The notes beneath the pieces are model-generated. The model ran no database searches, had not been told where the DNA came from, and saw nothing but the letters and a program-made list of their open reading frames with translations. This document shows, piece after piece, positions 15,451-46,830 of a DNA stretch of 64,000 nt. The stretch is taken from positions 2,420,501-2,484,500 of the forward strand of contig OZ020521.1 in the NCBI GenBank assembly GCA_963971425.1. Reading direction: 5' to 3'. Source of the stretch: Bryoerythrophyllum caledonicum (taxonomy: Eukaryota > Streptophyta > Bryopsida > Pottiales > Pottiaceae). A program made the translations under genes and the position numbers. Position 1 is the stretch's first letter, and each line of letters begins with the position of its first letter.

Positions 15451-15719
15451 ACGTTCATAAGTTAATTTGTGATTATACTTTCACTTAGATATCCACCAAT
15501 GAACCATGCTTTGATTTCAAAAGTACATAAAAGACTTCTCTTCTTATATGCACTGAAAAGAATGTGCACTCACAGGGAGTGGTGACACAACAATGCCCAT
15601 TGAATTGTTGTATAAATAATAGCCCCTATATTATAGCTACACTTTGCAAAATCATATCACGATTTGAAATTACATACTCATGGAAAAGCTAGGAATACAT
15701 CACAAAATACATCAAATGC

Positions 15720-16150
15720 ACTAAATTACAATGAATACTATGCCACATACTTTGTGTATTTCCATGTACATACAAGATGATTTTGGACTTGAATTTTGAA
15801 TGGAATGTCTTTAAGAGACTCATCATTATTTTGTGATTGTTGATCTCTCATCACATACAAAACTTCCATTATTATCCGTATACGTTTGGAACATTTTTTT
15901 ACACAATCAAGCAAACAAAAGTAAAAACTCATCAATAATCATGTATAAATGTTTACTTCACATGTGATACGTCAATAAGGAGCTATCAATCTAGTGCATA
16001 TTTGAACCTCTTTCATTCAAAGTAAAAAAAATCGAGCACAAATCTATTGATGGATGAAGTAGAATACTCTCCATTATCCACAATTTTTACTACCAATATA
16101 CGGTAGCTTGAAACACTATAATCTATTCCATCAGCCATTGGATGTTATGC
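15720..16150 (-). repeat. Dispersed repeat, partner of 62.6-63.1 kb
   Basis: The reverse complement matches 62,600-63,110 over several hundred bases, with shared words such as ATTGGTAGTAAAAATTGTGG and CAACAATCACAAAA. Both copies hold short ORFs around SQNNDESL / SQNNEESL, which is weak evidence for a decayed coding origin. The family is not recognised. Confidence 0.65.
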
Positions 16151-16167
16151 GATTTTTTCAAAGGTTT

Positions 16168-16580
16168 TTTTTTTTAATTTTAATTTTAATTTTTTGAAAA
16201 AAAACAAAACAAAGTTTGATTGCAGAAAAGTCACCAGTACAGACAGGCGCGCCAGTTCCGGCAACACCAAGGACTCAAGACCTCGAACTAGACATGAAAC
16301 TCTTTGACCCAAACAATATGGTCGCCTCGAACGCTACACAACAACTCATAACAACCCCAAGTGGAGTCGAAAAGGTTTGCCGCCTTGTTCCTGCTAGCCT
16401 TCGTGTTGGCAGTCAAAACTCTGCCCCAAGCAATCCTGCCATAGTCCGTAAGGCCTTGCCAAATGACATTCTCAATCTTGTAATGATTCCATTCACACTA
16501 GTTAAACACCCAGTCATTTCTGGCAAGCCAAAGAGTCCAAAGAGTAGTCCCTCTAAAAAGGAGCCAAATTCTACTAAAGG
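16168..16580 (-). mobile_element. 5'-truncated L1-type LINE insertion
   Basis: Flanked by a perfect 14-bp direct repeat TTTTTCAAAGGTTT (16,154-16,167 and 16,581-16,594). On the minus strand it reads LWLARNDWVFN, NVIWQGLTDYGRIAWGRVL and LFDSTWGCYELLC, the C-terminus of an L1-type ORF2 like the one at 2,340-2,560. An A-rich, TTAAAA-type tail lies next to the left repeat. This is a textbook target-primed, 5'-truncated copy. The 126-codon plus-strand ORF here is its antisense shadow. Confidence 0.88.
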
Positions 16581-17041
16581 TTTTTCAAAGGTTTAGATTG
16601 TGGTTTAAATTCAATTTGTAAGGTTAGATACTAAAATTAAACACTATCGTTCCATCAAAATTTGTTCAAAAAAAAATCATTAGAAACCTTGGTTTCACAT
16701 AAACACGCTCAAGGCACTAAAGAAGGGTAAAATTATAATTTCACCAATCTGCATGAAGTTCATCAATTTTCCTAAATAGTTGTAATTGAAAAAGGCCCAT
16801 TTATATTGGTAATTGTTGAATAAATTTTGATTAAGTAAGTTTTAATAGTTGAAAGTGCACCCCCATAGATTGCTCATATACATTGTGCCTCATGACCGTG
16901 AGAAAACTCATTTTTGAAACATTACCTAATATTACACATGATATCTAGTAATAAAATTGTTTAAAAATATAAGGCCTAACATTTTTTCAATACTTCACAT
17001 CACATTTTTCCAAAATTGTATAAAAGACTTCTCATTTTATA

Positions 17042-17319
17042 GGATTTGCCTATTTATCCCGGTCGAGCGGTGCACCGAGCCACAGGCTCGGCGGGGGTTG
17101 GGAGGGGTGGGACAAAACCTGCCCCTATTTTTGTATTGGAGTGGGGCCCTATTTAATCCAAGGAGGGATCATCGAGGATAATTTGGGACCGCAGGCCCCA
17201 ATTTTGAAAAAAAAAAATCAAAAAAGCCTCTAGAACCCAAAACGGACAGGGCCAGAAAAATGGACCCACCCGAGGCTGAGGTTTGGTGCACCGCTCGACC
17301 AGGGTCAATAAGGTAATCC
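17042..17319. mobile_element. Mutator-type MITE
   Basis: Starts GGATT and ends AATCC. Inverted ends are imperfect over about 45 bp with a perfect core GGTCGAGCGGTGCACC (17,061-17,076 and its reverse complement at 17,285-17,300). It is flanked by 9-bp direct repeats differing at one base (CATTTTATA 17,033-17,041; CATTTTACA 17,320-17,328). The 9-bp duplication and G-initial TIR fit Mutator-like elements. GC content is much higher than the satellite it interrupts, and neighbouring satellite units show the empty site. Confidence 0.82.
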
Positions 17320-18815
17320 CATTTTACATGCACAGAAGATTGTTTCTGGATACAACGCACCTCAACGCTGCTTAAATTATAATCCCACCAATTAACATGA
17401 AATAGACCATTGTTGATTAATAGTTGTTATCAGAAGAGACCTCTTTACCTGGATGGAAGGTGCTGACTCAATAGTGCCTATTGGTAATTATTGCGTAAAG
17501 GGCAATTATGTTTGTTTTTAAAAACAAACATGAACTACCAAATCCAAAGTGTGCATTTCAATATAGTGCCTCACAACTATGTGGAAACCAAATTTTGCAA
17601 CATTACCTACTATGATGTATGATTTTTTTCTAATAAACCAACTTTATTTTGATTTTTAGAAAATACTTAAACTTCTTGAAAAATTTCACATCACATTCTT
17701 CAAAAACATTGTAGCATACAAAAACATTGTAGTATACATGGAAGGTGGTATCTCAACAAAGCCATTAATAATTTTTGTATAAATTGTGATTCGGTTTATT
17801 TTTAAAGTAGAAAGTGCACCACCATTGATTGCTCTTTTATATTATGTCTCCCAACTATGTCAAAACTCAATTTGAAATATTACTAGATATCTCCAATAAT
17901 AAAATATGCTATATTTATAAAAATCTAACCGTATTTTAATACTTCACATCACTTTTTCAAAGATGGATAAGTGGCTTTTCTTTTTACATGTAGGGGAGAA
18001 GGATTATGCATACAACGCACCGCAATACGCACCAATTTGCATAAAGTCAACCAATGTTGCACAATGGTTGTTATTAGAACAACTTACAATGGTATTTGTT
18101 GTATAAAACGTGATTATGTAAGACTCAAGAGTAGAAAGTGCACCACCATAGATTGCTCATTTACATAGTGCCTCATAACTATATGAAAATTAAATTTCAA
18201 AACATTACATACTATTATACATGATAATATGCTAATAAATAATGGTTTAATTTTGTAACACTTAACCCCAACTTTACATCACATCTTTCAAAAATGAATA
18301 AAAGACTTCTCCTATTACATGCATGGAAGATTATTTCTACATTTGACGCACCTTGATGTTGCTTAAATAATAATTCCACCAATCCGCATGAAATCAACCA
18401 ATGTTGTCCAACAATTCTTATCAAAAGGGACAACTTTACATGATGCACGGTGCTGATCCTATGTGCCCATTTGTGATTATTGTGTAGATCATGACTACGT
18501 TTGATTTTAATAATGACTATCATCTCTTCACATCAAATTATTCCTAAATGAATAAAAGACTTATTTTCAAGCATACACTGGAGGTAGTGTCACAATGGTG
18601 CCCTTGATAATCGTTCTATAGATCCTCATTAAGTTAGTTGTAAAGGTAGAAAGTGCACCACTATATCTGCTCTTTTATATTGTGCCTATGCAGAAACCCA
18701 ATTTTGAAACATTACTTATTATCTCATTTGATTTTGCTAATAAATGATGCTTTACTTTTTTCAGACTTCAACTTTTTGGAATACTTCATATCACACTTTT
18801 CAAAAAAAGATAAGC

Positions 18816-21682: not shown

Positions 21683-24237
21683 TGTCATTTCAATAGCTAT
21701 AATTGGCAACACTATCCAATTTTGCTCCAAATTGTTTTGGTGAGACGCACACATTCACAATTTGTGTTATAAAAATGTGGGAAAGTGAACAAGTGAACCG
21801 GACAAGGTGTTGCAATAAATTTCAAGTCAACTATTGGTGCCCCCAAAACAAAACACCCTCTTCTACCAATGAAAGCCCCTCCCTGGACTTTGAAGAAACA
21901 ATTAAATCCTATCACAGTGCACCCATTGCAATCCGCAGAACCAGGAAAAAGCAGCAAAAGTGAATGTAGCAGCCTTGTCTATTACTGTTCCCTCTCTGCA
22001 ACAAAAGTATTATTGATTGTGTTGGAAAAACAAGTGTGGGAAGCCCAATACCGGTAACAATGAGTTTGCGTGCTTGGTATGGTAACTAGGTAAGACATAG
22101 GGAGCCGCCAAAGGACAGGACATATCTTTGAGAATACCCAACCAGGCCAACAGAAGTACATACAACTTCCGGAACTTCTGGAGGTTTGGAACTTGGACTC
22201 AGAAGAATGGCAAAGTTTGTGCCCCAATTATTGATTCATCCATCATTGGGTCATTCAGTACTGTGAGAATATCTGACAATCTTGTCATGCCCTTGTTATA
22301 ACAAAAAGTATAACCCTTGAGTGAACAACTTATATTAATCTTCTAGTGCCCATGACACTCATGCTTAATCCTTTAAGGCCCATCGACCATATATGGGTCG
22401 ATTATGGACAAAACCTTTATAGAATGCGCAATAGGCCACCTCAAAGGAAAAAATTGACCATGACTTAGAGGTGGAGGAAGATGGACATCTTTTGAGACCA
22501 TCGCCATCGCTATCGGTGCAAGCATCGACGAGCTACACTAATTTCCGTGGAACAAGTTTGTAGATTTGCATTCTGAAAAGTAACCACTCCGTAGATGCCG
22601 TTCTACATGATCTAGAACGCTCGTAGATCCTCACATGCCAGAAAAGCTCATGGGTTTAAAAGGGTCAAAAATGGGATTTGATGGAAACTGTTAGCAAACT
22701 AGGCTTTGAAATGTGAACCTATATTTGTAGTGTTATCGTACCTATATGATGCAACAACTCTAATTTAGTTTGGACTTTTACAACTAAAAAAAACAAGGCC
22801 ATATGTAAAGCATTTAAGAACAATAGAGTTTTTTTGAAGTCCTTCCTAAAGAGGAAAGAAATGAAAAGATAGGTTGAGTTTAGAATATGGGAAGAAGAAG
22901 AGCATGAGGAATTTTATGTTTTCTTTTTTTGCACCAATGAAATGCATTGCAATCAATGACCTTGGGCCCTACTCAATGCAAGTTAAAGCTCCCCCGTAGT
23001 ACCCTAAGTTCTCAAAGAGTTGACCAATAGTTCCCAAATACCTTTTCCAAGCCAAGCCACCCTCTCTATGTGGTCCTACTTGCTAACAAAGCACCTCTTA
23101 CTTTGGATTAGTGAGAGATGAAGAATAGAATGGTTAATCACATGCAATACTTTGAATTAAAAAAATGTTTAGAGAACATGCTATACGTATTTGTACCAAA
23201 TTGCAACACATTTGGTATTTTGTTGTATTAGTAAATAAATAGTAGCATTTCCTAGTATTCTTGTGAATGTTGTTTCCTTGAATCTATATGCTTTTCTATT
23301 GTGGTGATGATTTGAATAGATGTACATTTAAAGGATAGTAGAACTTTTATGGATTTAGTTTCTATAAGATACAAAAGCGACTTTCTATGTTTTCAGAAAA
23401 GCATTGACAAACCTTTATAAACAAGTTGTAAATATATAATCTCTTGTTGGAAACTTGATTGGGATTTTAAACTTAGAAAATCATTGTCTATTGTAGACTC
23501 TATATAACATAAATATATGCTTTGTAATATCCTGTGATCTTTTGAGATATATGGTGGATATACTTTTGATTCACATGATAAAACAAACAATACCATTGAG
23601 TGTAAAAATATCAATTTAAGGTATGTTATGCTAATAATAATTTTAGACCTTGTGGAATGGACAAAATTTACCAAAAAAATCAAGACTATATATATACAAT
23701 ATTTGAAAATTCATGATATACACATTTGTTCCACTACAAATATCAATAAATTTAATGCTTCCATCCCTGTGAAATGATATAATTCTACATAATTTGCAAA
23801 TCAATTTGTTTTCTTAATCTAGTGTGAAATTATTATCAATTACTTTGGAGTGAACTCTTTGTCTCTAATGCTTTCAAAACTTGCCTCCTTATGAGCATGA
23901 AAGAGCCAAAATTTCCTTAATCTAGTGAAAAAGAAACACCAATCTTGTCACAATCTATTACATTAACATTGATAAGAGTAATTCACCAGGGCACATGGGC
24001 ATTTGACCATTCTTTTCCTTCCTAGAGGATAGATCATGGATGCACCTATTACGATTTGAACCATGGAATTCAAGTCCATCATCATTAGCTTGCTTTAGAT
24101 ATGCCTTATTTTATACTTTGGTGATCCATAGTATACTTTGGTGATCCATAGTTTTTCCTATGTTTTTGTACCATCAACTAATATGATATAATAATAGGAT
24201 GTACATATTATCTATTTTCCTTCAAACAAAGTAAAAG
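21683..24237. other. AT-rich spacer, no supported gene
   Basis: Short ORFs at 21,703-21,963 and elsewhere show no recognisable content. 22,360-22,700 has moderate GC and may be an old element but its ends are not visible. A 20-bp direct duplication (TACTTTGGTGATCCATAG) lies at about 24,115-24,153, just left of the hAT element. Confidence 0.4.
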
Positions 24238-24330
24238 CAGGGTTGTCTACATAGACGGATAGGGGCCCAAAGACAGCGGGCGGACGGAGAGTCGCATGGA
24301 CGGACAGGACGGACAACACTTTTGGGCAGA
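24238..24330 (+). repeat. hAT left terminus and subterminal repeats
   Basis: A 9-bp TIR CAGGGTTGT is followed by GACGGA / GGACGGACA words at about 24,255-24,325. The same words appear in the same plus-strand orientation near the right end, so beyond the 9 bp the ends are not mirror images. Confidence 0.8.
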
Positions 24331-24429
24331 CAATTGCGTGTAAATTTTTTTTACAAATCCTAAATCAAATTTACAACTTACCCCCTAGTAAAACACGTGT
24401 GCCGACACGTCAAGCAACTTTTCACGTCA

Positions 24430-24595
24430 CATCATAGGGTCGGGCGCGTACCTTCAGGCCGTGCGCGGAGCATTTGGGGCCGGGCGCGTATCCCTCAGGG
24501 CCAGGCGCGTACCGTCAAGGTCGGGCGCGTACCGCTAGGGGTCGGGCACGCAGCGTTACGGGCCTGGCGCGTACCGTTGTGGTTTGCACGTGCAC
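24430..24595 (+). repeat. GC-rich 21-bp array 1
   Basis: About seven units of the type GGGCCGGGCGCGTACCNTCA, diverged. It sits between the hAT left end and the acidic-tail ORF, in otherwise AT-rich DNA. It is the same core (GGGCGCGTAC) as arrays 2-5. Confidence 0.8.
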
Positions 24596-24673
24596 CTGAT
24601 ACTATTGTCCCATGCAATCACCAGACCACTAAATGTAGTTTTAACTTGTAGTACCCTCGTGTCCGTCATCTTT

Positions 24674-25288
24674 TTAATCATCCGAGCTTGAGGATTCTTC
24701 ATTGTCTTTCTGCTTCCGTTTTGATCGGCAAACATTTTGGGAAAGAGAGAGCCCACGAAGCACCTCCGTATTGTTGCCACGTACCTCATCGCAATCCTCA
24801 TCATCTGCATCATCACCCGATGATGAAAAGTTCTCCGCTGAATTTTCCAAGACTCGTGCCACGTACTCTTCAATCTCCGAGGCCAAGTTTCATAATTGTA
24901 GCTCGGCTCGAGTAGTTGATGCGGCGTTCACAAGTCGTTTTACTCCGATTTTCTTCCTTTTGTCTGTTACTCCATCCATGTTTTTAGAGCGGTTGCCTTT
25001 GGCCCCAATGACTCTCTCCGAGGTTCCGCTTCACCAAAGTCCCGTGAAGAGGGAGAGTACCATTGTTCTCGCCCCTCCGTGTCCCTAAATGGCTGCCCAT
25101 AGTAGAGGACCCAACCCTCGCGGAGGGAAGTTGTGGGATTAGTATCGTGCGCTCCACACCACCATTTGGGCCAAGTGCGCTATGGTGGACGGGTGGCCAA
25201 ACTATGGTTGAAGAGGTTTTTTTCTTTACACGTAAAAGAGTTATCCCGATCGATGCGGTACTTTGAGCACGTGGCAGCCGAAACAAAT
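24674..25288 (-). pseudogene. Acidic-tail ORF of unknown function (hAT cargo)
   Basis: The clean C-terminal piece (24,886-24,674) starts MASEIEEYVARVLENSAENF and continues to a Ser/Asp/Glu-rich tail (SSSGDDADDEDCDE, SSSSDD). Upstream, after a stop, the same frame reads DGVTDKRKKIGVKRLVNAAS. Basic then acidic segments suggest a nucleic-acid or chromatin-associated protein, but no domain is recognised. It lies directly downstream of the transposase C-terminus and may be a separate gene or a continuation of it. Confidence 0.45.
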
Positions 25289-25289
25289 C

Positions 25290-27726
25290 TTAGAGTGGCA
25301 TGTCTTCCTCTGAGTCCGGTTCTATTGCTTGAGACAAAACCTGAGTGCTCCTCACAACTTCAATGGATCCCGTGGTGGCCATTCGCTCATGGGATTCATT
25401 ATTGTTTCCACCACTGCTCACTTTGATTCCATCGTGAGAAAATGCATTGTGCGCTACAATGCCAATGCCATGACCGTCGAGATTAGGGCCATCGCCACTT
25501 GAAGGGCCTGAGGCGCTAGAGCCGTTTGAGTTGGGAGACTGATTCTCCGAGATGTTGTCATCTCAATCAAGATTGTTCCCCAATGCCGACCCATCTTCCT
25601 CTACCCTAGCTTCTTGGGCACGGTCTTCACCCGACAATTCTACTGTAGTATGGACTGCTTCTGCGTTGACATCATCAAACACAAAAGGATCCACTGGATC
25701 GCTGTGGACGTTGTGAAAATGGTCATGTAGTGCATCTCCATCGTGCTTGTTGTTTGCAGAGTTGTCCCTAGGTGGGCTATATCAGACACGGGATTGTTGT
25801 CACCAGCAAGGTCTTTCCAATCGCCGCCCATCCAGTTGTAACCCCCATCATCCGAGTCCAAGTCCTCGTCCTTTGTGTTTGAAGGAATTCCCCCATCTGG
25901 ATCAGACTCCTCTGAATGCACATTCTCCTCATACCATCGAACTGGGTCCGGTCGAGCACGTTCTCGGAGCAATCGACTATTCGTATAGATGTAAACCAAA
26001 TCTTTCGCTTTCTTCACTCCCAAACGATTTCGGCTCTTACTATGCAGGAACAAATACATGCTTTAATTACGCTCACATGACGAGGCCAAGCAGGTTTGTG
26101 CTAATATACGCTTTGCAATGATAGACAATGATTGCCCGCCCACGCGGTTCCACTATTGATGAGGCAACATGTTGTTGTTTTCAATCTCCCGAGCTTCCAA
26201 TGGTGAATATGGGCCTGGCAATTCTTCATACTCCGTGATTTCAAGCATTACTGCCGAATAGGACACTTCGAGTGGACCACAGAGCGTCACAACAACCTTG
26301 TTTAGGGCCCTTTTGGCCTCACCATTGTTTTGAATTTGCAAGTTAGTGGCTAGATAAAGATTCAATAAAGCCCCTGCATAATGATGATTTGTTGTCATCA
26401 TCTCCCAACGGACAAAGAATGATCCTTCCAGGCGAGTTGCAATTCCGGCTGGCATGTTGAACGGCGCATTGCGCAGCTTGAGCACGTGCTCCTTTAGCTT
26501 GTTCATGGTTACCAAACAATTCCCATTGCCGAAGTGTCACCATCAAAAGTTCGCAATGCCTTTAGTACTGGTGCCACTACAAATTCAAAGTTAGTGCACC
26601 GATGCTAGAAAGTCTCGTCTTGAATGGTGGCCCGCACCTACGATGCCTTTGTATGGGCACGGTGCCCGTTTTGCCTATCGAAAAGAGAGAATACGTAGGA
26701 TATCCATGTTGGGTCTATCACAACCATCTCCAGAGCATTCTTCACTTCCAACAGACGATGGATCATTATGTAATTGCATGCAGACCTTGTTGCTGTTGGC
26801 CACAACAAAGACAATTTTGGCGAAAATCGACAAAAAAGAGCCATGGGCACATGGTGGTTCCGGATATACAATGCAATCTCTTTTGACTTCTGGACGAGGT
26901 CTGCAAATATGTCTTCCTTTTCCCAGTCCTCGAGGAGGAGGTCCAAAATATGTGCACAACACCCTTGAGTATATATATGCGGGTACTCATCGTTGACCTT
27001 CTTCATTGCCCCCAACATGTTTGAAGCATTATCGGTGCACACTTGGACCACATTCAATGGTCCAACCTTTTGGATAAAAGTTTTCAATTGGTCCCCTATA
27101 TATGCGTTAGATTTCTTCATACCCGTGGTGTCAATAGACCCCAAGAAGATATCACCCATTGGACATACGAGCATGATATTCATGAGAGGGCTACGCGTAA
27201 CATTGTTCCACCCGTCCGAGCATATTGTTGCTCCATACTTGGCAATATCTACGCCGGTCTTCTTGTCCACAAGGTCTTCCACTTTTTTTTAGAGGCTCAA
27301 TGTATGTCGTCTTCATGGCATTGTACAATGGCGGTGTATAATCAAAATCCGCCTTTGATGTTGCGAGTGTCGCCTTGATGAAGGCCGGATGTCTAACCAC
27401 ATTGAATGCAACGTTTGCTCCATAAAAAATTGTGCCCATAATTCGTCCAACTCTTTTCGTTATTCTATTTGATAAGCGTCTGGGAAGCTCAGTTGTGGTA
27501 CAGATCTTGGTGTTGATGATGCTGCTTGGCTTAGAGGATTTGTGGACTGCGTGTTCTCCTCATTTTGAGTTTCCAAGAAACTACCTTGTTGAATCGATTG
27601 GCTTGAACAAGGTTCAGTGGAACGTGTTGCTGGTGCTTGATCCTTCTTGTTAAATGTGTACCATGGGGCCCTCTCCTTTGTTTGAGCCCTTTGTTGACAC
27701 GACATCACAATAAAATCGGCGCGCAA
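25290..27726 (-). pseudogene. hAT transposase (DUF659 and hAT-C), broken
   Basis: The transposase would cut and join the element ends. Pieces in order: a Ser/Gln-rich N-terminal linker (27,726-27,460); FFYGAN-like FYGANVAFNVVRHPAFIKAT and FDYTPPLYNAMKTTYIEPL (27,439-27,300); DUF659 (27,282-26,638) with ATICSDGWNNVT (Asp at residue 23), VCTDNASNML (Asp 84) and CCAHILDLLLEDW; VVAPVLKALRTFDGDTSAMG (about 26,580); then a long frame with hAT-C: SLSIIAKRILAQTCLASSCE, RN-stop, HSKSRNRLGVKKAKDLVYIY. A Ser/Gly-rich tail ends near 25,290. In-frame TAG and TAA sit near 26,153 and 26,060, with at least three frame changes. A BED finger was not found. Confidence 0.9.
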
Positions 27727-27906
27727 TGTTGTGCCAAAGATAATTCACCAAAAATAATAGGAAATTGTGTGCTAGTAGAAAAATGTGGATCCAAAGGTCA
27801 CTCACAAACTTGTAGATTCATGCAAGGAGCCCAATAAGGAGTTCCAGGACACGAAGCCAAGGATCTGAGGTGAGTGAAGCACATAGCATATGGTTCTTAT
27901 ATAGTG

Positions 27907-28205
27907 CTGGAGCAGGAGCATCTGGGGCCGGGCGCGCACAAGGTGGGACCGCGTGCACATCTATGTAGTCGGGCGCGCACGCTGTGGAGCCGTGCGCGTT
28001 CTCCATGTGGCCGAGCGCACACGCTGTGGGCCGGGCGCGCACGCTGTGGGGCCGTGTGCGTACGCTCTAGGGCCGGGCGCGCACAATATTGGGGCGTGCG
28101 CGTACTTTATGTGGCCGGTTTCACACGCATAGGGGCCGGGTGCATTCAATGTGTAACCGGGCGCGCGCATTGTGCAGTCGGGCGCGCACTCTAAGGGTCG
28201 GGCTG
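27907..28205 (+). repeat. GC-rich 21-bp array 2
   Basis: About 14 units of the type GGGCCGGGCGCGCACGCTGTG with diverged spacers. It lies between the transposase N-terminus and the first accessory paralogue, where a promoter for the minus-strand transposase would be expected. Confidence 0.8.
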
Positions 28206-28439
28206 GCGTTTTAGATTCTTCCATAATACTTCAAGGTTTGCACCAATTCGACAATATATTGAAACATTGCAAAACTCAAGATTTTGATATGTAAAACATC
28301 TCATAAAAATCCACTAAATATACATGATGCCACTCAATTTACAAGATTTTATTAAATATACAAAATTTTGCTCAATATTCAATGGCAGTTACAAAATTGT
28401 CGAAAGCTCTTGTTCCAAAACGTTTCAACATTGCTCTAT

Positions 28440-29380
28440 ATACATTTCTAGCACTGTTGTAGTTCTAAACTCCACTATAGCCAGTAAAAATTGAAAGAAG
28501 ATGGTCTCTCTCCCGAACTTGTTCCTTCAAGTCTTGAATTTCTTCGTGGCATTCCAAAACTTCATTTTCCTTCTCATCGAGATCTTCTCCTAGATCTTCA
28601 AGCTTTCATTTAGTCGATTCACAACTCGAAGATAATCGTCACGACTCACCCACTCACCCTGCATAGATTTTTTTTTATTATCCACGCCCTTCTCAAGTAC
28701 CACATCCGTCTTCGTGGCATCTCCCTCTTTTTGTGAAACCGATGGTATTGGGTTCAAGCCTAATTTGAAGGACAATTCTTGTTGCCTACGCACAGACTAA
28801 TGACATCCAGTATCCGAGTCGTCAGATGAAGATGCGGACCACTCGATTTTTTGATCCGAAGGTTCAACTTCCATGGTTCTCCCAAGACCTTCTCCTGGAA
28901 ACTTCTGCACAAACGGTATTGTTATTCCAATGACTAGCGCCATCTTGGAGTTTGTTTGGATTTCCATTGTCCTCCAATCAACCGGTACGCCAAGTACCAC
29001 CTCTGCATAAACCATCCGTAAAATTGAAAAATTTACCGAGTTGCGGCGCACTTCGCCTCGTCATAAATGTGTTGGTACGCTTGGATGCAACGCTCCTTGA
29101 AGAACTCATTGGTGCAGTACCCCAAGTTGGCCCTATTTGTACGTTGCATTAGACAATACCGCGAGTATGGCCAGTGGTGCCCCAAATGACACCATCCAAT
29201 GTATTTTGCACATTGTGCAAATGTCCATGGAATTGGAACTGCCTCCTAACCAGAAAATGCCTTCATATTTTCATCCATCAACACGTGAAGGCGCTTCTTC
29301 TGCTTTGAACGTGCGTGATGTTTATCACGTTGTCGTTTTCTGTGGGGACTGCTAGTGGTAGATGGTTGTCCAGAATCCAT
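28440..29380 (-). pseudogene. Accessory gene A (paralogue of gene B), broken
   Basis: Starts at 29,380 with MDSGQPSTTSSPHRKRQRDK and basic RSKQKKRLH, then a stop, then NRANLGYCTNEFFKERCIQA. A frame at 29,051 gives LRMVYAEVVLGVPVDWRTME. All three blocks align with gene B (33,356) in the same order: RKREKDRDRARHGKLQKKRM, NKANLKYCINEQFRARALQV, RMVYAEVVFNKQVDWRTV. The C-terminal part (28,793-28,440) is charged and probably coiled-coil (DDYLRVVNRLNESLK, HEEIQDLKEQVRERD). No zinc finger is seen. Function is unknown; the Lys/Arg-rich N-terminus suggests nuclear or DNA association. Confidence 0.6.
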
Positions 29381-29564
29381 GGTGACGAGGTGGAGAAATA
29401 CGAAGGTGGCGAAATACAAAGGTGTCAATAGACACCGTAAAAAACTTCCGAAAAGTGCCAAGCAGCAGCCGCCACGTGGCAGTTGCAGGCCAAAGCGCCT
29501 AGAGGTGGGTCCCATAACTTGGAAATCCAATATTTATAGTAAATTAGTGACCTATGGCAGGCGC

Positions 29565-29745
29565 ATTTGACCAAGAGGTGTGCGTATGCGAGGGGGCTGC
29601 GCGCGTATGTTGGAGGGCTGCGCGCGTAAGCGAGAGGGGTAGGCGCATACGCGAGAGGGCTACGCGCGTACGAGACGGGGCTGCGCGCGTACATAACGGG
29701 GCTAGTCGGGCACGTTCGAGTAGGGTTGGGCGCGCACATTTCTGG
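29565..29745 (+). repeat. GC-rich 21-bp array 3
   Basis: About eight units of the type GGGGCTGCGCGCGTACGNGA. It lies just upstream of accessory gene A. Confidence 0.8.
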
Positions 29746-30506
29746 ATCAAGCACCTACCTAGTGCCTTGAACTTGACATACTCTCCTTTCCAAAATTCCA
29801 TTTCCGACGTGCCATCTACAATAAATTACTAATTTGCAATTTCCATGAATTCTATAAAAGTAAAAATTACATAAAGTGGGTAGATTGAGTTTGTATATGG
29901 AAAATTTGTTCTCTGTTACAATATATTACTACAATATTGGCACTATTACAATTTAGTGAATTTATTTGGATGGCTCAAATGATTTGACTTCTATCTTCCA
30001 TAAATCTATGAGCATGTACTGAAAATTTGATTTACGTACAAAAAATCATAAACAATCCAATATTTTTGAAATGTTCATGAAAAGTAGTCAAACACTATAA
30101 TGTTTTAAAAACATCTTCTTAAAATGTTGTTAAAACAATACTTACACTTACTTAATGATTTTTTTGGGGAGAGTTAGTACCTTCAATTAGCATGGGAAAT
30201 GATTTGTATGGCAAACTTACACTCATATTAAGATATAATATGGATAATTTGTATGGTAGAATGCCATCTCTTATCATTTGGAAGGCCGTCGCAATTAGTT
30301 ACATATAATTCAACCAAGAATAATAATGTTGCATTAATATTGGGGATATTGTTACATCCCAAATCATTTATTATGCAAGTAAGTAACATGATTTTTATTG
30401 TTTAGTCTTATGATTTACATGTTTGAGGCAAAAGTTGAAGTTTTACTCTTCAACACATGATATAAATTCCACTACAAAAAAATTCTCAATGATTCTACAG
30501 ACTACT
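29746..30506. other. AT-rich spacer inside the hAT element
   Basis: No ORF of note and no repeat structure seen up to the gap. Confidence 0.5.
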
Positions 30507-30706
30507 NNNNNNNNNNNNNNNNNNNNNNNNNNNNNNNNNNNNNNNNNNNNNNNNNNNNNNNNNNNNNNNNNNNNNNNNNNNNNNNNNNNNNNNNNNNNNN
30601 NNNNNNNNNNNNNNNNNNNNNNNNNNNNNNNNNNNNNNNNNNNNNNNNNNNNNNNNNNNNNNNNNNNNNNNNNNNNNNNNNNNNNNNNNNNNNNNNNNNN
30701 NNNNNN
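30507..30706. other. Assembly gap (200 N)
   Basis: Exactly 200 N, so the true size is probably unknown. The base after it begins GTGGGCGGGCACGAACAGGG, which resembles the GC-rich array units. The gap therefore probably hides another array that failed to assemble. Confidence 0.95.
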
Positions 30707-30930
30707 AGTGGGCGGGCACGAACAGGGACCATGAAAAGTTCAGTTCTTGCAAATTGGATTATCTTAAATGTTACAAAATCATTTCAATGTTTCAAAAGAG
30801 TTGCCGGAAATGGGTCAATGCTTTAAAGATGTCCTTATATTTATATTGCATATATAAATGCCGCAACATACAAAATGGTTATAAATGCTATGCTTTCATC
30901 TTGCATTCTATTTGCCTATACTCCACTTCA

Positions 30931-33356
30931 TCACGCATCAACTCCACTTGGTTCACCACTTCCTCTAGCCCCATCATCAAGCAATCTACGAGCCGCTCGC
31001 GTCCTCCGGTGAGGCCCATCCGAGTTTACCAAAGCACGTAACATTCCAGAGTTCCGAAGTGCTTTGAGAGTCTTCAGTCGCTGGACTATGTTCCTCAAGA
31101 AGGAAGTCAATAGCTTCCTCCTTCCAAGTTTCCTTCCATTGCAATTCTTCCCATTGCAACGCATTGCGAAGGTCAAGATCAGTGGCCTCTCCCAATTCTG
31201 ACACCACACGTCCCTGGTGATTCCACAGTTTCCCATGTGGATGTCGCCCAAATTGGAATAGCTTCCATCTAGCATCCCAATATCCACCCATGACTTGGTA
31301 GAAGAAGTTTTGTTTAGCAACATGGTCCGCGGTGGTTCCCGATATGAGTTTCTTGGCCACTCGTACAATTTCTTCATGGTCATTTTTCCAACCAAATTGC
31401 GAGCTTACACTGGACTTATGTAGCTGGTGGCACTGCCCATGCCAATTCCATACCAAATCTTCTCTCCACTTTTGAGCATAGGCATCCCCAGGCGCAATCT
31501 CCGGGTTCAACTCCCAACTAGGTGGCATGTAGGTGGTGAGGCCAAACAATTCATACAAGCCCTTATGAAATGGTGCTCTACACTTTGCGCAAAACCTACG
31601 TGTCAAGATACCACCTAGGAGACACATCGGATGGTATAAACACCGGCACGTGCCAAGAGCATATGCACCTTCTGGCCCGAAAGGATTTAAACAAATCAGG
31701 CAAGCATCTTCATTTTGGGTGAAGCTTGCTAGTGTTGGCTATAACTTGCGTGCTTCCACGTTTCCGCTTGGTTGAAGGGCATGAGAAGACATAGCCTCTG
31801 CGTGGTCCCACTCCAACTTTGCCCAGTCAATAGACTTATCATCTGGCAACTGAGGCAATTCGGTTGGAAACATCTCATCGATGTGTGCCCAGGATGTGAG
31901 TTCAAAGTCATGGCGCGTATTATTCGTCAGATATTTATAGTCAATCTTCTTGAATTCTATTGCCATTTGCCTCGCACGGTCAACATTCAAGATGCCTGCT
32001 AGCTTCCATTGATGGTACTGCTCGCTCATGGATATAATCATTTTTCGAAGGATGTCGTTTGCACTGCGAAGCTGAACTAGTTCTGTGCTTGGATTGGGTG
32101 GGATAAACGACAGGAGAATCCTCGGTGCCGATGGAATCTACAAATGGCTGCGTTGCTACAGTTGGCGGCGGTAGAAAAATTGACGGACGACTAGCGAAGC
32201 GGTGTCGCGGTGGTCTCGTCGGGGTCTCTAGCAAGCAACTAGTAATGTTGCCAATAACATTGTGAAGGATTGTATCGTCCACACCTTGAGCAACACGGCC
32301 AATATTAGCCTGGCTCGCAACACGTTCTTGACGCAACTCTTTCATCTCGGTTGCTTGCTTGGTGATAATGTCATCTTTTTTACTGGATTGTAGCTTGAGG
32401 TTTTGAATCTCTTCTTGGAGACGTTGAATTGTCTCATCCTTCAAGGTTATAGTTTCCAAAAACTCCTGGTGAGCATTGATGGCCATACTTCCGGACCCTG
32501 ATGCTACATGCCTGGTGTTGGGAGTGGTGACTATGACATCCATCATTGGCATTTCATCCATAACATGGAAGGGTTCTTCATCTCCAACACCCTCAAGCCT
32601 CGCTATTGGTTCATCATCGCCAACAAGATTTAGGATTGGTAAATCTACTTGGCCACCTCCTTGAACCATCAGAGGTCCTGCTTGATGGAGCTTCACTCGT
32701 TGCCGTTTTTTTCGTGACGCACGCGCCACTAGAGAAGTCGATGAACGTCGACCTACACGTCCATCTGAGTCCGAATCAGGTGATGAATTTGACTCTACTG
32801 GAGGTACTTCTTCTAGGCCATCGGTTTTCTGTGGCCCTAGTGCCGTAAATTGAAACACTGGATATTGCGCCCTAGGCACATCGGCATGCATCCACACGCT
32901 CGACATTTTTGGAATTTTCCGCACAGTCCTCCAATCCACTTGCTTATTGAAAACGACCTCCGCATATACCATGCGAGCGAGATAGAGGGGACAATCATTG
33001 CGGGGCATGAATTTGAGTTCGTATTGGTGCACTTGGAGGGCACGAGCTCGAAACTGCTCATTAATGCAATACTTCAAATTCGCCTTGTTTGAGCGACAAT
33101 TTATCAAATGGTGATGTGGAGGAAACATCTTCGACAGGTAGCACCACTCGATGTAATCCTCGCAAGTGACGGACGACCATGGCGATGGCTCATCTTGCCA
33201 ACCCACGAATGCAATTTTCGTTGGGTTGTTGAACAGGTGCATCCGTTTCTTCTGGAGCTTCCCGTGCCTCGCCCTATCTCTGTCTTTCTCCCTCTTCCTC
33301 AACACGGTGGACATTGGTGGCTGTTGTTGGGCTTCCAGCTCACTCTCACTTTCCAT
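30931..33356 (-). pseudogene. Accessory gene B: basic N-terminus, coiled coil, RING-like finger
   Basis: A 458-codon open frame starts at 33,356 (ATG). Residues ~20-40 are Lys/Arg-rich; ~110-170 hold the block shared with gene A; ~205-225 are basic (RASRKKRQRVK); ~310-360 form a likely coiled coil (LKDETIQRLQEEIQNLKLQS). A frameshift near 32,090 moves the frame to 32,041-31,739; after one TAG it continues to 30,986. Just past the TAG is a zinc-finger pattern (about 31,706-31,580): CLIC, 14 residues, CRCLYHPMC, then CAKC. It resembles RING but lacks the canonical sixth ligand. If real, it could be a ubiquitin-ligase-like or treble-clef protein. One frameshift and one stop make this copy dead; role unknown. 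Confidence 0.65.
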
Positions 33357-33612
33357 AGCGGAACACTGTAAAAAAATCTACCAAATATTCGTTAACTACG
33401 CTAAGCTCTATCTCAAAAAAATAAAAAAATTACCACCTTGGATTTGAAAATAATCCAAGGTAGTGATGTAAACTAATTCGAACGGTGAACAAAGGTGATG
33501 CAATACGAGTGAGTAATGTGTGCAAATCTGGAGCCCCAATCAAAGATCACGCAATCAGCCACCTCAAAAAGATAGTTGAAAGCCATGATTTCCAATTGGA
33601 GTTTTCTGAGAT

Positions 33613-34350
33613 GGGCTGGGCGCGCGCGGCCATTTATACCTGTGGGCCGAGTGCCCACGCGGCATGGGGAATGCGCGCATGCCGTATGGGGACCGGGCGC
33701 GTACACTGAGGTCTCGCGCGTAGGATTAGGGGCCTCGCGCGTAGTATCTAGGGTCAGGCGCATGGACTCTGGGCCCGGGCGCATGCGGGAACAGACTGGG
33801 CACGCGCGGGAACGACCGCGCGCGAGCGGGAAGAGGCTGCGCGCGTACGGAAAGGGGCCAGGCGCGTGCGGGAATGGGCTGGCCGTGTGAGGGAATAGGC
33901 TGGGCGCGAGCGGGAACGGCCGGGAGAGAGCGGGAGCTGACTAGGCGCGTGCGGGAACGGGTAGGGCGGTTGCGGGAACAACCGGGCGCGTGCGGGAACA
34001 GGCTGGGCACGTGCGAGAACGGGTTGTGCGCGTACGGGAACGGACCGGGCGCGTACGGAAACGGACCGGGCGCGTGCGGGAACGGATTGGGCGCGTGAGG
34101 GAACAGGCCGGGCTCATACGGGAACGGGTCGGGAGCGAGCGGAAACGGTCGGGCGCATATGGGGATGGGCTGGGCGCGAGCAGGAACGGATCGGGCGCGT
34201 ACGGGAACGGGTTGGGCGCATATGGGTACGGGTCGGGCGCGTACGGGAACGGGCTAGGCGCGTACGTTGGAAGGCCGGGCGCGTACGGGAGCGGGCCGGG
34301 CGCGAGCGGGAACGGGTCAGGCGCATGGCGTCTTGGTCAGGCGCATGCAG
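33613..34350 (+). repeat. GC-rich 21-bp array 4 (largest)
   Basis: About 30-35 units of GGGCGCGTACGGGAACGGNC, with a period of 21 bp in the cleanest part (34,020-34,320). Because 21 is divisible by three, long frames such as (GAYGNGL)n run through it; these are by-products. It occupies the divergent promoter region between gene B (-) and the kinase-like gene (+). Confidence 0.9.
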
Positions 34351-34554
34351 ACGCGCATGCGAGGCCACGGTTTTCCATTTCACTATAAATGGAACAGATT
34401 CTAATATCAATCACATAGGCTCCTCTCAAGTGGCTCCTTGTCCTAGTACTATTCGTACTTTGCTAGGAACTAAGGGGGGGGCCACCACACATTGGGGGGG
34501 AGGTTTTGATCTTTTTTTTAAATTCTAGTTTGTGTAGGGGTTGTGATTATTGCA

Positions 34555-36140
34555 ATGGCCATTGATCGTAATATTGGAAAGCGGCCCTTGTATGTTGATT
34601 TAGATGCTCCAGATGCATATGAGCTTCCACCTACTAGCGTTGCAGAGTCAAGCCGCAAACCTTCCGATGAACCAAAGGCACCGTCGAAGAGGGCGAAGCA
34701 AAAAATGTTTGCGCACGAGAAGGATGCGGGTTATCCACCGAAGCAGTATACCGCATTTCTTCGAGGTGTGGCAATACAATATTACCGTCGGTGGTGTAAA
34801 ACTGATGCGGTGCAATTCCGTCAAGTTTATTTGGAGAAGGGAGAGCTAGAAATCATGTGCCTGCAGGCTGACGTCTAGTCAAAATTTGAGTGCGCTCTGG
34901 AGAGTTCTGAATCGTACAAGGATGCATATGGCATGTACCACTATGCCTCATTCATGGAGAGAGTAATCACTCAATGCACAAGTAATGCATCGCATGACTT
35001 TGATTGTGAGGTGAAAAAACCTAGCGGGGGCCAACATCAGCCTCAAGACTTGGAACTCCGCAAGTTCCTCGAAGGTGTAAAGACCACCATCGGCAGGTTT
35101 TCAAGCTTTCGTACCAGAAGCATGCCTTGGAATGAACAAGCAATGAAATCACCCATGGAGATGCATATGTTGTACAACGTGCAATTCCTTCTAGAAGATA
35201 TCGGAGTCTATAGACTTTCCGGATATGACGCCGTTGGTGGATACGGAAAGCTTCGGAAGGTCCGCATCGTGGGTGTGAGAGCCATTTCGACATACATGGA
35301 GTTTGCCGGGAAATTGCCAAGAGTGTCTCATCCGAAGGAGAAATTTAGACAACAGTCTCACGAGGCCATGATGTGTCATGTTGCACACCCAGGAGTTATA
35401 AAGTTTTGGGCTGTGAATACAAAGAATATGGAGGCGTACACATTGTGGTGGAATGGTGGTAGTTGAGCCCATTTTAAAACCGTTAATTCAAAGGCAAATC
35501 CGGCGGCTTCGAGCAATTCAATCCTTTTAGCTCATACATTTTGGCAGAGGATACTATACAAATTTTAGCCTTTCAAAAGAACAGAGTAAGACTTTCTTGG
35601 ACATTGATGTACACCATGGCCCAAGTCTACAAGGCAAATGTCATTCATAATAACATCGCTCCCACAAATGTGCTTCTCCACTTTCGTCTAGAGAAACCAG
35701 GGTAAGTCTTCATTGGCGTTTGTGATTGGGGAATTGCGAGCCGAGTATCACACGAAGAGCCATCAAAATATGGATTCTGGACTAAGACGGAGCTTGAAAA
35801 CCAACGCTGTAAACGACATTGGATAGCTCCAGAGTTGTTTTACAAATTCGGCCCACAAAATTCGGAAACGGCATTGGATGTGATGCAACGGCGACACCAA
35901 TACACCGATCTCGCCGATTCGTACTCCGTTGGGTGGATGGCTAGAGCGATTTGGGCGAAAGAATCTAACTCACCATTCTTCAAATCAACCGTCAACTATG
36001 CAGCTTTTCAAGTAAAGATCGACAAGTTACCGGAGCGAGATTCAATTGAACGTCCAACAGTCTCCAAAGTGGTTGACGAGCTAATGGCTAAACCATTCAA
36101 CTTTGAAGTATCGGACGCTTGCTTCCTCTATGAGATATAG
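34555..36140 (+). pseudogene. Kinase-like gene carried by the hAT element, broken
   Basis: Starts at ATG 34,555 (GCAATGG context; MAIDRNIGKRPLYVDLDAPD). The N-terminal half has Ser/Lys-rich PSKRAKQK. One in-frame TAG at 34,876, then the frame runs to 35,466. The kinase N-lobe is GYDAVGGYGKLRKVRI (glycine loop), FAGK (likely beta-3 Lys) and HEAMMCHVAHPGVIKF (likely alpha-C Glu). After a TGA and frame change: VIHNNIAPTNVLLHF (HRD-x4-N position, with HNN for HRD), GVCDWGIASR (DWG for DFG), RHWIAPELF (APE-like), and YSVGWMARAIW (the DxWSxG region). It ends with TAG at 36,138. All landmarks are in normal order, so this was a full kinase domain; the missing catalytic Asp suggests pseudokinase state or decay. 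Confidence 0.8.
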
Positions 36141-36305
36141 CAATTTTGGCTTAGCGTTTTGATAGTGAAGGCAAATTGTTGATCATTTTGCAATATGTAC
36201 TAGCATTGTGATGTAACGGTGTGTTTTGCCCATCTCGTGATAAATTAAAGATTGACATTTTTCATACACATTGCGATATTAGGTTCATGCATGTTAAGCA
36301 GTCAA

Positions 36306-36735
36306 GAGCGCGCGCGATCCCTGAATCCCATACCCGTACGCGCGCGCCCCCAGACGCCACGCGCCCGGCCCAGCCCCCTCCACGAACGCACCCAACCCCC
36401 TTTACGAACGCACCCAACCCTCAGCGCGCGTGCGACTTTGGTCGGGCGCCCAACTTCTCCAGGTATGCGGCCCAGGCCCTTCACCGCGCGCGCCCGGCTC
36501 CTTGCGGTACGCGCTTGATCCCTCATGTATGCGTCCGGCCCCTTGCGATACGCGCTCGATCCCTCCCAATATGCGCCCGGCCCCTCACGATACGCGCCCG
36601 TCCTTCCTTGTATGCGCCCGGCCCATCTCCATATGCGCCCGCCCCCTTCACGCACCCGCCCTTTGATTGCACGCACGCGACCTTGTAGTCGATGTGTCAC
36701 CCACGCACGCGACCTTGTAGTCGATGTGTCACCCA
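36306..36735 (-). repeat. GC-rich 21-bp array 5 plus 33-bp duplication
   Basis: The same units as arrays 1-4 but inverted (TACGCGCCCGGCCCCTNNCG on the plus strand), about 15 copies. At 36,665-36,735 a ~33-bp segment with GCGACCTTGTAGTCGATGTG is tandemly duplicated. It lies downstream of the kinase-like gene. Confidence 0.8.
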
Positions 36736-36789
36736 CGCACTCGTCTTCGTGGCAATGGATAAATTGATTTAACTCAAGTCATGGTCAAA

Positions 36790-36881
36790 CTAGGGTTGAC
36801 CCTTATCGGACGGACAACTGCCTCTATCGAACGGACAGCCAGACGGACAGACACTAACGGACGGACAAACGAACAACCCTG
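36790..36881 (+). repeat. hAT right terminus and subterminal repeats
   Basis: Words GGACGGACAA, GAACGGACAG, AGACGGACAG and GGACGGACAAAC lead to the terminal ACAACCCTG. They have the same strand orientation as the left subterminal words. Confidence 0.8.
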
Positions 36882-36889
36882 AGTAAAGG

Positions 36890-42599: not shown

Positions 42600-44872
42600 T
42601 ATATGTTTGTTGCCTCAAAACTTGCCACAAAATTGTTCTTCTTGAATAATAGCAACCACTTAAGGTTAGCACCACTACAAGTCATGGAGCAATGTTTTAA
42701 GCGAGCACTTGCAAGCATTGCATATCTTCAATCTCGTTCCAAGAACCGCCACAAGGGCGACGTTGAAGGAGACGATGCTCTCCAATTGCAAGGTATGGAA
42801 GCTCACTAGGAGTATCTAAGTTTGCTGCCACCGCATTTGAAAGCACAACAATGGCAAGAGAGTTACAAATGCGGAGGGGGGAGCAATGATTTATAACTAA
42901 ACCCACTCACCACAAAAAAATTTAGTGCACTCCTAGCAAGATTGCTCACCTACCGAGTAATCTATGGTGTTGCACTTTTTAATCTAGAAGTAACTTAATC
43001 ACAATTTATACAACAATTATTAATGGCCACCATTGTGTCACCACCTCTCGTGCATGAAAGAGGAGAAGTCTCTTATTCATTTTTTAAAAAATGTGATGTG
43101 AAATATTTAAAAAGGTTAACTCTTGTGAAAAATAAAAGCATAATTTACTAGTGAAAGCATAAGAGATAGAAGGTAATGTTTCAAAATTAATTTTTGACGT
43201 AATTCTAAGGCACCTTCTAATAAAATAATCTATGATGGTGCACTTTCTAGTTTTGAAACTATTTTAATCACAATTTATAAAAATAAATTAATGGGCAGCG
43301 TTGTCTTACCACCTCCCATGGATATAAATGTAGAAGTCTATTAATTATTTTTTGAAAAAATTTGTGTGAAGTATTCAATAAAGGTTAAGTCTTTTATAAA
43401 AAGAAAGCATAACTTATTCGCGGGTATTATATGAGATAGTAAGTATCATATCAAAGTTGAGTTTTTCATAGTTTTGAGGCTTTTTACAAGAAAGCAATTT
43501 ATGGTAATACACTTTCTACTTTTAAAATCAACTTATTCACAATTTATACAACAATTATCAATGGTCACGGTTGTGTCATCACCTCTCGTGCGTATAAGCA
43601 AGGAAGTCTTTTATCAATTTTTGAAAAATGTGATGTGAAGTATTCAAGAAAAGGATAATCTTTTTAAAATAAAAGCATAATTGTTTAACAGAAAATATGA
43701 GATAATAGGTAATAGTTTAGAATTGGTTTTCCACATGGTTCTCGCGCACCATATAAAAGAACGGTTTCACTGGCGCACTTTCTATCTTCAATACCAACTC
43801 AATCATGATTTATACAATAATTATAAATGCCTACCGTTGTGTCACCACTTTTGGTGCTTGTAAGAAAATAAATCTTTCATTCATTTTTGAAAAATGTGAT
43901 TCGAAGTATTGAAAAAAGATTTAATTTTTTTTCAAAATTAACTATAATTTATTAGTGGAAAACATATGACTTAGTAGGTAATGTTTCATAATTAATTTTC
44001 CACATATTTCCAATGCTTTATATAAAAGAGAAAACCATGTAGTGCACTTTTTACTCTCAAAAGTAACTTAATCACAATAAAGACAACATTTATCAATGGT
44101 CATCGTTGTGTCACCACCTCTAGAGTGCATGTGAGTAGAGATGTCTCTTGTTTATTGTTTGAAAAATGTGATGTGAAGTATTCAATAAAGATAAAGTTTT
44201 TTAATATAAAAAGAGCAAAATGAATCAACAAAAAGCATATGAGATATTAAGTAATGTTTCAAAGTTAAGTTTTCACCATAGTTTTGAGGCACTATATAAG
44301 AAAGCAATTTATGGTGGTATACTTTCTACTTCTAAAACAAACTTAATCACAATTCATACAACAATTATCCATGGGCACCATTGTGTCACCACTTCTTGTG
44401 CATATAAGAAGAGGAGTCACTTATTCATTTCTTGAAAATTGTGATGTAAAGTGTTCAATAAAGGTTTAGTCTTATATTGGTCATTTGATATGGTAGGTGA
44501 GCCATCTAGTTTGGAGTGCACTCTAATTGTTGTGGTGAGTGAGTCTATTTATAAATCATCTCTTCTCTCCTCCGCATTTTTTAACTATCTTGTTGTGGCC
44601 GTGTTCCTTGTTGTGGCCGTATTCTATGATGTGGTGATGGCAAAGTGAGAGACACCCAATGTGAGCCATCATAGCTTGCAATCAAAGAGCACCTTCTCTT
44701 CAAACGTTGCCCTTGTGGTGGTTCCTGGAGTAAGGCTGAAGATAAGCGGGGTTTGCAAGCGCTCGCTCAAAACATTGCCCCGCAATCCGTGGTGGTGGTC
44801 AACCCAGGTGGTTTTCAGAAGGTGAGAGGAACAATTTTGTGGCAAGTTTGTTGATCTTTCAAATGTAGGTAA
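42600..44872. mobile_element. Foldback-type element: ~300-bp inverted ends around a tandem array
   Basis: 42,600-42,905 and the reverse complement of 44,525-44,872 match over roughly 300 bp, with ordered shared words (ACTTGCCACAAAATTGTTC, GGCAATGTTTTGAGCGAGC or its variant, CCACAAGGGC, AATGCGGAGG). Between them lies the ~265-bp tandem array. No transposase is present. Long inverted ends around tandem repeats are the layout of foldback elements. The exact outer boundary and the target duplication are not resolved. Confidence 0.75.
42930..44500 (+). repeat. Tandem array, period about 265 bp, six units
   Basis: Landmarks ACAATTTATACAACAATTAT or variants recur near 43,005, 43,270, 43,540, 43,805, 44,080 and 44,350; GAAAAATGTGATGTGAAGTATT and TGGTGCACTTTCTA recur in step. 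Units are about 75-85% alike by eye. The block at 15.5-21.2 kb is the same unit inverted and more diverged. Confidence 0.85.
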
Positions 44873-45865: not shown

Positions 45866-46369
45866 CACTACACTAAAAATGATAACTTATGTCATATAGT
45901 AAATAACACTATTCATCCACATTAGTGACAATAAAGATGTCACACAAAGTACCTTGTTGAACCAATCAATTTTACACTGGTACCTTGATTGACACTAATG
46001 TCAATCAATCAATGTTACCATACAAAAGATGACATTTAGTGTAATGGTACGAATAGTGTACTTATCCTAGTACACTATATGTTAAGAAGTTGGCAATTAG
46101 TGTTAGTTGCCATTGTCATGAATATTATCCCTGGATTGTCTACCTATCCTAGTACACTATTTGTAAAAAGGTTGACAATTAGTCTTAGTCCCTAATCAAC
46201 CGCCTATCCTAGCACAAAAATTTGTTGACAAGTTGATAAATAGTGTTAATCCCCAATCAACTGCTTACCGGTTGCCATGCATTTATTCTCCCTGTCTCAT
46301 CCTCATCCTCATTCCCTTATCTTCCCATTCCAAACTATTCCCATTTCCATCTCATACATTCCTTGAAAC

Positions 46370-46830
46370 TTTCAATGAATATCTATTGAATATTTAATGT
46401 ATACTTATATATTTAATAAAAAGTTAATGACTTTCTATGATATTTTAATGTATACTTTATGACGATTTAATATATTTGTATATATCATGAATTTTAATAA
46501 AAATTAAATGAGTTTATTTGACTATTTAATGAATATTTAATGTATATTGATATATTTATTCTATATATATATTGAATGAATATTGAATGATTTAAAAATA
46601 AATTTCTAATGTATATTTAATTTATATTTGAATATTTAATGAATATTTAATGAATATTTAATTTATATTTGAATATTTAATGAATATTTAATGAATATTT
46701 AATGAATATTTATTGCATATTTAATGAATATTTATTGCATATTTAATGAATGTTTAATGAATGTTTAGTGAATGTTCAATAAATATTTAATGAATATCTA
46801 ATGAATCTTCAATGTATATTTCTATATTTA
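46370..46830. repeat. AATATTTAATG minisatellite
   Basis: About 30 degenerate units of AATATTTAATG or TGAATATTTAATGTATA, partly in exact runs at 46,620-46,760. It occupies the same position in copy 2 as the TTTTTCAAAAGG minisatellite does in copy 1. Confidence 0.85.

Follow-up and report, generated by a model that had tools for sequence, protein, structure and literature searches.

A decayed 12.6 kb hAT-type element with accessory kinase-like and RING-like genes and a proposed array-based control in a moss genome

The DNA analysed here (the window) is a stretch of 64,000 nucleotides from the moss Bryoerythrophyllum caledonicum (assembly GCA_963971425.1, contig OZ020521.1, positions 2,420,501–2,484,500). 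Positions 24238–36881 are occupied by one copy of a hAT-type transposable element, 12,644 bp in length and bounded at both ends by CAGGGTTGT. Between these ends lie the remains of a transposase gene and of three accessory genes, encoding a short protein (paralogue A), a long RING-like protein and a divergent protein kinase, together with five arrays of a 21-bp repeat (Table 1). Paralogue A and a further paralogue, B, which is present in three other copies of the element (C1, C2 and C6) and absent from the window copy, are small coiled-coil proteins; the RING-like protein is a long coiled-coil. Every gene in the window copy is broken, with the transposase, paralogue A, RING-like and kinase genes all hit by stops or frameshifts, and several stops fall at tryptophans of the relatives (KLW in the RING-like protein; FW, QWW and RNW in the transposase). 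The GC content in 2-kb bins across 24001–36000 is 0.45–0.51, with 0.365 in the bin containing the assembly gap, compared with 0.34 and 0.32 in the bins just outside.

Table 1. Positions of the element's features within the window.
Feature	Positions	Strand	Remarks
Left target-site duplication, AGTAAAAG	24230..24237	.	Flanking sequence
Left terminal inverted repeat, CAGGGTTGT	24238..24246	+	Left 213 bp has at least 39 scored relatives
Left terminal CGGACGGA/GACGGAC repeats	24281..24314	+	
21-bp array, left subterminal	24442..24574	+	5 matches, all +
hAT transposase gene	24722..27603	-	DUF659, hAT dimerisation region, acidic C-terminal tail; broken
21-bp array upstream of transposase	27930..28189	+	9 matches, all +
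Short paralogue A	28471..29380	-	Basic N-terminus; N-domain in common with RING protein; no RING; broken
21-bp array upstream of paralogue A	29599..29737	+	7 matches, all +
Assembly gap of 200 N within the element	30507..30706	.	
Long RING-like protein gene (open-frame span)	30986..33377	-	One frameshift and a stop at the relatives' conserved Trp
21-bp array, divergent RING/kinase promoter region	33618..34307	+	22 matches, all +
Divergent protein kinase gene	34555..36137	+	528 residues in P0020; broken; HND reads HNN
21-bp array, right subterminal, inverted	36336..36714	-	17 of 18 matches on -
Right terminal CGGACGGA/GACGGAC repeats	36807..36866	+	
Right terminal inverted repeat (inverted CAGGGTTGT)	36873..36881	-	
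Right target-site duplication, AGTAAAGG	36882..36889	.	Flanking sequence

The boundaries are those of a hAT element. Exact CAGGGTTGT occurs only twice in the window, at the two ends and in the correct orientation for a terminal inverted repeat (TIR), which is perfect over 9 bp and has a mismatch at base 10. Both ends carry CAGGGTTG, in agreement with the pattern [T/C]AGNGNNG that is given for hAT, together with a duplication of 4–8 bp, in the available part of a plant survey (PMC6027215); a duplication of 8 bp is called typical for hAT in excerpts of a second source (PMC12506042). The flanks AGTAAAAG and AGTAAAGG are identical at seven of eight bases. Two exact occurrences of CAGGGTTGT are by themselves not rare (two or more in 14 of 100 shuffled sequences); the window element stands above chance because of the genome-wide matches to its left end and the matching flanks of the end pairs found elsewhere, both described below. 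A preliminary description of this DNA had proposed a 12.6-kb hAT-type element with TIRs and an 8-bp duplication, and these boundaries are confirmed.

The transposase gene carries the DUF659 domain (Pfam, 1.3e-31), and searches of public sequences returned 106 homologues. The dimerisation region does not score above the cut-off in the broken frames of the window copy; the relative P0051 has both DUF659 and Dimer_Tnp_hAT above it. The motifs CSDGW, CTDNA and SSCERNW, which we take to be catalytic motifs of the transposase, are present in the consensus of 20 relatives. P0075 of Physcomitrium patens, a hAT C-terminal dimerisation domain protein, is 61% identical over 63% of the query. Pieces of P0075 align from 26910 to 24722, so that the acidic-tail open reading frame (ORF) listed as a separate gene in the preliminary description belongs to the C-terminal part of the transposase and was rejected as an independent gene. 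The public record for P0094, which belongs to this transposase lineage, names a Bacilli metagenome-assembled genome as the source, which looks like plant contamination.

The preliminary description also listed two related ORFs (one with a RING-like finger) and a kinase-like gene. In the window copy both RING (0.0076) and kinase (0.00085) fall below their Pfam cut-offs; the kinase passes in relatives, with Pkinase at 3.5e-11 in its nearest homologue P0020 (528 residues, 72% identical along the full query). The 31 public homologues of the kinase include diverged relatives that are full-length, with invariant motifs, at 31–72% identity. In an alignment of 16 rows, the glycine loop, lysine, catalytic aspartate and metal-binding aspartate of protein kinases can be recognized: G228, K253, H365-N366 and D391-W392-G393 are invariant and D367 is nearly so, with HND and DWG in place of HRD and DFG. 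A search of PDB sequences with this alignment gave five weak kinase matches (best 0.0006). For the RING part, 19 public homologues were found. RING scores lie below the Pfam cut-off in all five proteins scanned, the best being P0003 with 26.5 versus 27.3 bits and the window protein reaching 16.9 bits; precomputed database domains give RING families for P0003 and P0013. No relatives of the kinase were confirmed in viral_contigs or in prokaryote genome_contigs, and none of the RING protein in viral_contigs.

We searched the assembly from which the window was taken (437 Mb in 894 contigs) for further copies. With the left 213 bp as query, the best 40 of 1,071 first-look candidates were scored, giving the window itself and at least 39 other matches at 87–90% identity. 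Matching right ends were sought at 30 of the left-end places in stretches of up to 3.2 kb and at ten in stretches of 20 kb, eight of these ten having been picked because element DNA was already visible past the left end, so that they are not a random sample. Nine left–right end pairs were found, or ten with the window. The flanking duplication is complete (eight of eight bases) in four of these ten (L011, L021, L030 and C12) and matches at seven of eight in five (L029, C10, C11, C1 and the window); agreement at seven or eight bases arose in 99 of 200,000 random pairs of 8-mers. The two ends thus occur together elsewhere at distances similar to that in the window, for example 13,148 and 13,852 bp apart. 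The latter is the C1 copy (C1:35252499), which is the only gapless span and, of the gapless copies read, the longest. As 200-N gaps recur within these elements, breaks in the assembly seem to fall there, perhaps at the GC-rich arrays, and copy sizes may be underestimated. The left-end copies L014 and L015 form an inverted pair around a gap and were rejected as one element.

The C1 copy has the complete order: left end, transposase (-), paralogue A (-), paralogue B (-), RING-like protein (-), kinase (+), right end. Accessory genes are held by five of the 11 copies examined (the ten 20-kb stretches and the window), namely the window, C1, C11, C2 and C6, in identical order and on identical strands; no other arrangement of the lineage's genes was seen among the 11. 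C11 retains the transposase, an N-terminal piece of the RING protein, the kinase and the right end, with a gap and more than 5 kb of unmatched DNA in its middle. C2 and C6 contain the transposase, A, B and RING genes in order, with insertions; C2 ends in a gap and C6 reaches the limit of the fetched stretch. End-to-end copies with a kinase therefore number three of 11 (window, C1 and C11). Only the transposase is kept in C14, C12 and C15, and only ends or pieces in C4, C10 and C1:44790979. Two diverged sequences were noted in these stretches. Just past the gap in the C2 copy (L037/L038, C2:10931625), a second transposase (positions 14497–16423) lies on the opposite strand with 43–56% identity to P0051. 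A much diverged relative of the RING protein (26–31% identity) lies at 16989–17567 of the 20-kb stretch of the C10 copy (L049/L050, C10:4018282), outside the 3.1-kb element and 3 kb from another CAGGGTTGT, and possibly represents a second lineage.

The association of the RING and kinase genes extends well beyond these copies. Genome searches were scored for the best 82 of 2,381 kinase candidates and the best 150 of 1,810 RING candidates; most of the scored kinase matches are full length, and eight of the 82 are free of stops. For at least 28 of the 82 kinase places, a RING place in head-to-head arrangement lies on the opposite strand 2,006–4,788 bp upstream, a lower bound because both lists hold the best candidates only, and 25 of the 28 pairs are spaced 2.0–2.83 kb apart. 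Within 8 kb there are 29 pairs, one of them in another arrangement. Random placement of the RING matches, excluding those on contigs without a listed length, gave a mean of 0.18 pairs and a maximum of three in 1,000 trials. Contig C1 (65.2 of 437.4 Mb, about 15% of the assembly) contains 32 of the 82 scored kinase copies and 63 of the 150 scored RING copies, an excess that perhaps marks a chromosome rich in transposable elements or non-recombining. The proposal of a giant hAT lineage that stably retains its cargo is supported by the shared left end, the common gene order in the copies read and this head-to-head pairing.

A second shared feature is the 21-bp repeat. Searching for GGGCGCGTAC with up to two mismatches gave 75 matches in the window, 68 of them within the element, compared with a mean of 7.4 and a maximum of 14 in 50 shuffled elements. 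The matches within the element form five clusters, all in noncoding parts, in which the commonest neighbour spacing is 21 bp (31 pairs), and the arrays at the two ends are mutually inverted. In the window and the four other gene-bearing copies, an array is situated 66–383 bp upstream of the assumed 5' end in 16 of 20 gene copies. The exceptions are the C1 transposase, for which most of the stretch is deleted, the C2 RING and C11 transposase genes, each with a gap 0.1–0.25 kb upstream, and the C6 RING gene, 0.5 kb from the end of the fetched stretch. The arrays could be nothing more than an expanded GC-rich satellite that has no part in regulation, as their units are degenerate (65–90% matches in period-21 rows) and the number of matches differs between copies; their regular spacing and their placement at both ends, inverted, and ahead of most gene copies make this the less likely explanation, although one of some weight. 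From their placement, we somewhat favour the view that a protein encoded by the element binds the arrays.

Selection on the genes was estimated from pairwise ratios of nonsynonymous to synonymous substitution (dN/dS) between copies. Pairs with fewer than 80 shared codons were dropped, as were seven transposase pairs with the C2 copy, in which codons came partly from the second, diverged transposase, and four RING pairs with C10 that were too diverged. The ratios are 0.47–0.57 for the kinase, 0.47–0.76 and 0.29–0.76 for the C-terminal and N-terminal halves of the RING protein, 0.23–0.69 for paralogue A and 0.44–0.48 for paralogue B. Overall, 20 of 28 accessory-gene pairs lie within 0.4–0.7, near the transposase (13 of 21 pairs in this range, seven lower and one higher at 0.78, without the C2 copy). 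A shifted-frame control with 200 bootstrap resamples was applied to 21 chosen pairs: the true frame gave the lowest of the three values in 17, and the upper bootstrap limit was below 1 in 18. Since each copy decays once inserted, the pairwise values probably understate the constraint on the active lineage.

These values bear on whether the cargo has a role at all. A hAT element might have picked up pieces of host genes once and amplified them as passengers, a process that is common among plant transposons (excerpts of PMC13317346) and that would suit the many decayed or deleted copies seen here. Such a capture is improbable given accessory-gene ratios close to those of the transposase, the diverged relatives with full-length kinases and invariant motifs, and arrays placed upstream of cargo genes just as they are upstream of the transposase. 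The cargo also differs from the host gene fragments without long-term function that define Pack-type elements, in that full-length kinase frames occur both in relatives and in the genome and in its dN/dS values; host parent genes were not searched for. That dN/dS is mostly below the shifted-frame controls and that the public relatives are diverged and full-length speaks for accessory genes that have long belonged to the element, and against their recent capture.

Several observations weigh against a stable, complete element. Among the best candidates, 54 of the 82 kinase places and 122 of the 150 RING places have no scored partner, and a scored left end (best 40) lies within 14 kb upstream of only one kinase place, or within 40 kb upstream on the same strand of three (at 3.4, 20.1 and 30.0 kb). 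Six of the 11 copies have no cargo and retain the transposase alone, the ends or just a left end, and no copy with five intact genes was seen among those examined. One end pair, C15, lacks a matching duplication (two of eight bases). The end bases vary, with C1 starting TAGGG and C10 and C11 each having one altered base near the right end. Nine of the ten end-to-end spans include the 200 N of an assembly gap, and the true lengths of those spans are therefore not known. In the selection control, a shifted frame gave a lower value than the true frame in four of the 21 pairs (one each of paralogue A, paralogue B and the N-terminal and C-terminal halves of the RING protein), and the upper bootstrap limit exceeded 1 in three. 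Three other pairs of the RING N-terminal half are only 0.03–0.04 away from frame +1, which makes the pairwise test weak for this half. Finally, L051, a locus around a stop-free kinase, contains no RING gene in the 1.4 kb read upstream of the kinase. As a separate point in favour of the element, the open frame of L051 is followed by the inverted array and the canonical right end, and 2.7 kb of this DNA is 94% identical to the C1 element.

Two mobile units, with a RING–kinase element or array-flanked module nested in the hAT element or sharing its ends, might be read from L051, from the left end 3.4 kb from a kinase and from the few scored kinases near scored left ends, but this is very improbable given that gene order and ends agree in the window, C1 and C11, that the right end follows the kinase in L051 as in C1 and that a single repeat type marks both ends and gene starts; the shorter forms could have arisen by deletion between arrays. 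The closely spaced left end and stop-free kinase (G000:C2:14813260 to 14818209) may be a kinase-only derivative without a transposase or RING gene.

We are thus confident that the sequence is a transposable element with stable cargo, and only slightly less so of the fuller description: the window copy is very likely a decayed member of a large cargo-bearing hAT lineage of a non-seed (moss-like) plant, with its cargo held stably and with a proposed control through the arrays. As judged from the ends, duplications and domains, the transposase would cut and paste the element. An element protein, be it the transposase or a member of the trio of paralogues with basic N-termini, may bind the 21-bp arrays at the ends and promoters; that one factor reads both is suggested by the placement of the arrays. 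Transcription of all of the genes and the readiness of the ends could then be controlled jointly, and control of the cargo genes is probably element-wide. Such joint control might serve as an on/off switch for the element or might shield it from host silencing, in the manner of VANC in VANDAL elements. We predict E3 ubiquitin ligase activity for the RING-like protein and serine/threonine kinase activity for the kinase; their targets may be host silencing or repair factors or the transposase itself. By analogy, anti-silencing can be put forward only tentatively as the purpose. A possible, speculative synthesis is a hAT lineage with self-contained control, in which the 21-bp repeat (two helical turns) at ends and promoters would be read by the element-encoded coiled-coil family, and the RING protein and kinase would disarm host silencing or license transposition, as an independently evolved counterpart of VANC.

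Elsewhere in the window, the stretches 42929–44485 and 16772–18760 comprise repeated units about 269 bp apart and, about 25 kb from these, their diverged inverted relatives. At 58805–61599 on the minus strand, three large ORFs (512, 209 and 229 residues) that adjoin or overlap look like another transposon or gene, and an AT-rich tandem array with a spacing of mostly 11 bp lies at 46367–46863. An Rfam scan of the window gave no match at gathering scores.

hAT elements are generally regarded as small and as carrying no more than one or two genes. The presence in a high-copy lineage of four further conserved genes, a kinase and a RING-like protein among them, suggests that DNA transposons of plants can carry signalling and protein-turnover functions of their own. 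The numerous kinase-like and RING-like places counted here could also easily be mistaken for host genes. Among the literature matches listed, no title or opening lines described a hAT element with a kinase and a RING protein, which is no proof of absence.

The element resembles the DUF659-type plant hAT superfamily in its DUF659 and dimerisation domains, TIR pattern and duplication length, and a relative of its transposase is found in P. patens (P0075, above). It differs in its four accessory genes and its length of 12.6–13.9 kb; the longest plant consensus given in the available part of the plant hAT survey is 7,144 bp (Gulliver of Chlamydomonas), and that part reports no moss hAT (PMC6027215). 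ToxhAT/ToxTA of wheat-pathogen fungi is comparable in being about 14 kb with cargo, but according to excerpts of its description (PMC12506042) it has moved out of hAT, with a TA duplication and a 74-bp TIR, and is single-copy and likely to be non-autonomous.

The closest parallel is the VANDAL elements of Arabidopsis with their VANC protein. According to the portions available of the corresponding papers, VANC binds short motifs, often as tandem repeats in noncoding parts, and removes silencing (PMC5735166, PMC10398659), and some VANDAL elements carry a captured Ulp1 domain (PMC13317346). As in VANDAL/VANC and the Ulp1-bearing KIU forms, stable extra genes stand beside the transposase here and short motifs are repeated in tandem in the noncoding stretches (excerpts of PMC5735166, PMC10398659 and PMC13317346). 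VANDAL belongs to the Mutator-like transposase superfamily, whereas the transposase here is of hAT type (its Mutator-like element, MULE, match is 15.6 bits against a cut-off of 27.6), with kinase and RING-like genes in place of VANC or Ulp1. The common arrays offer direct access to the question of how such an element keeps its genes and ends in step, and of whether anti-silencing has evolved more than once.

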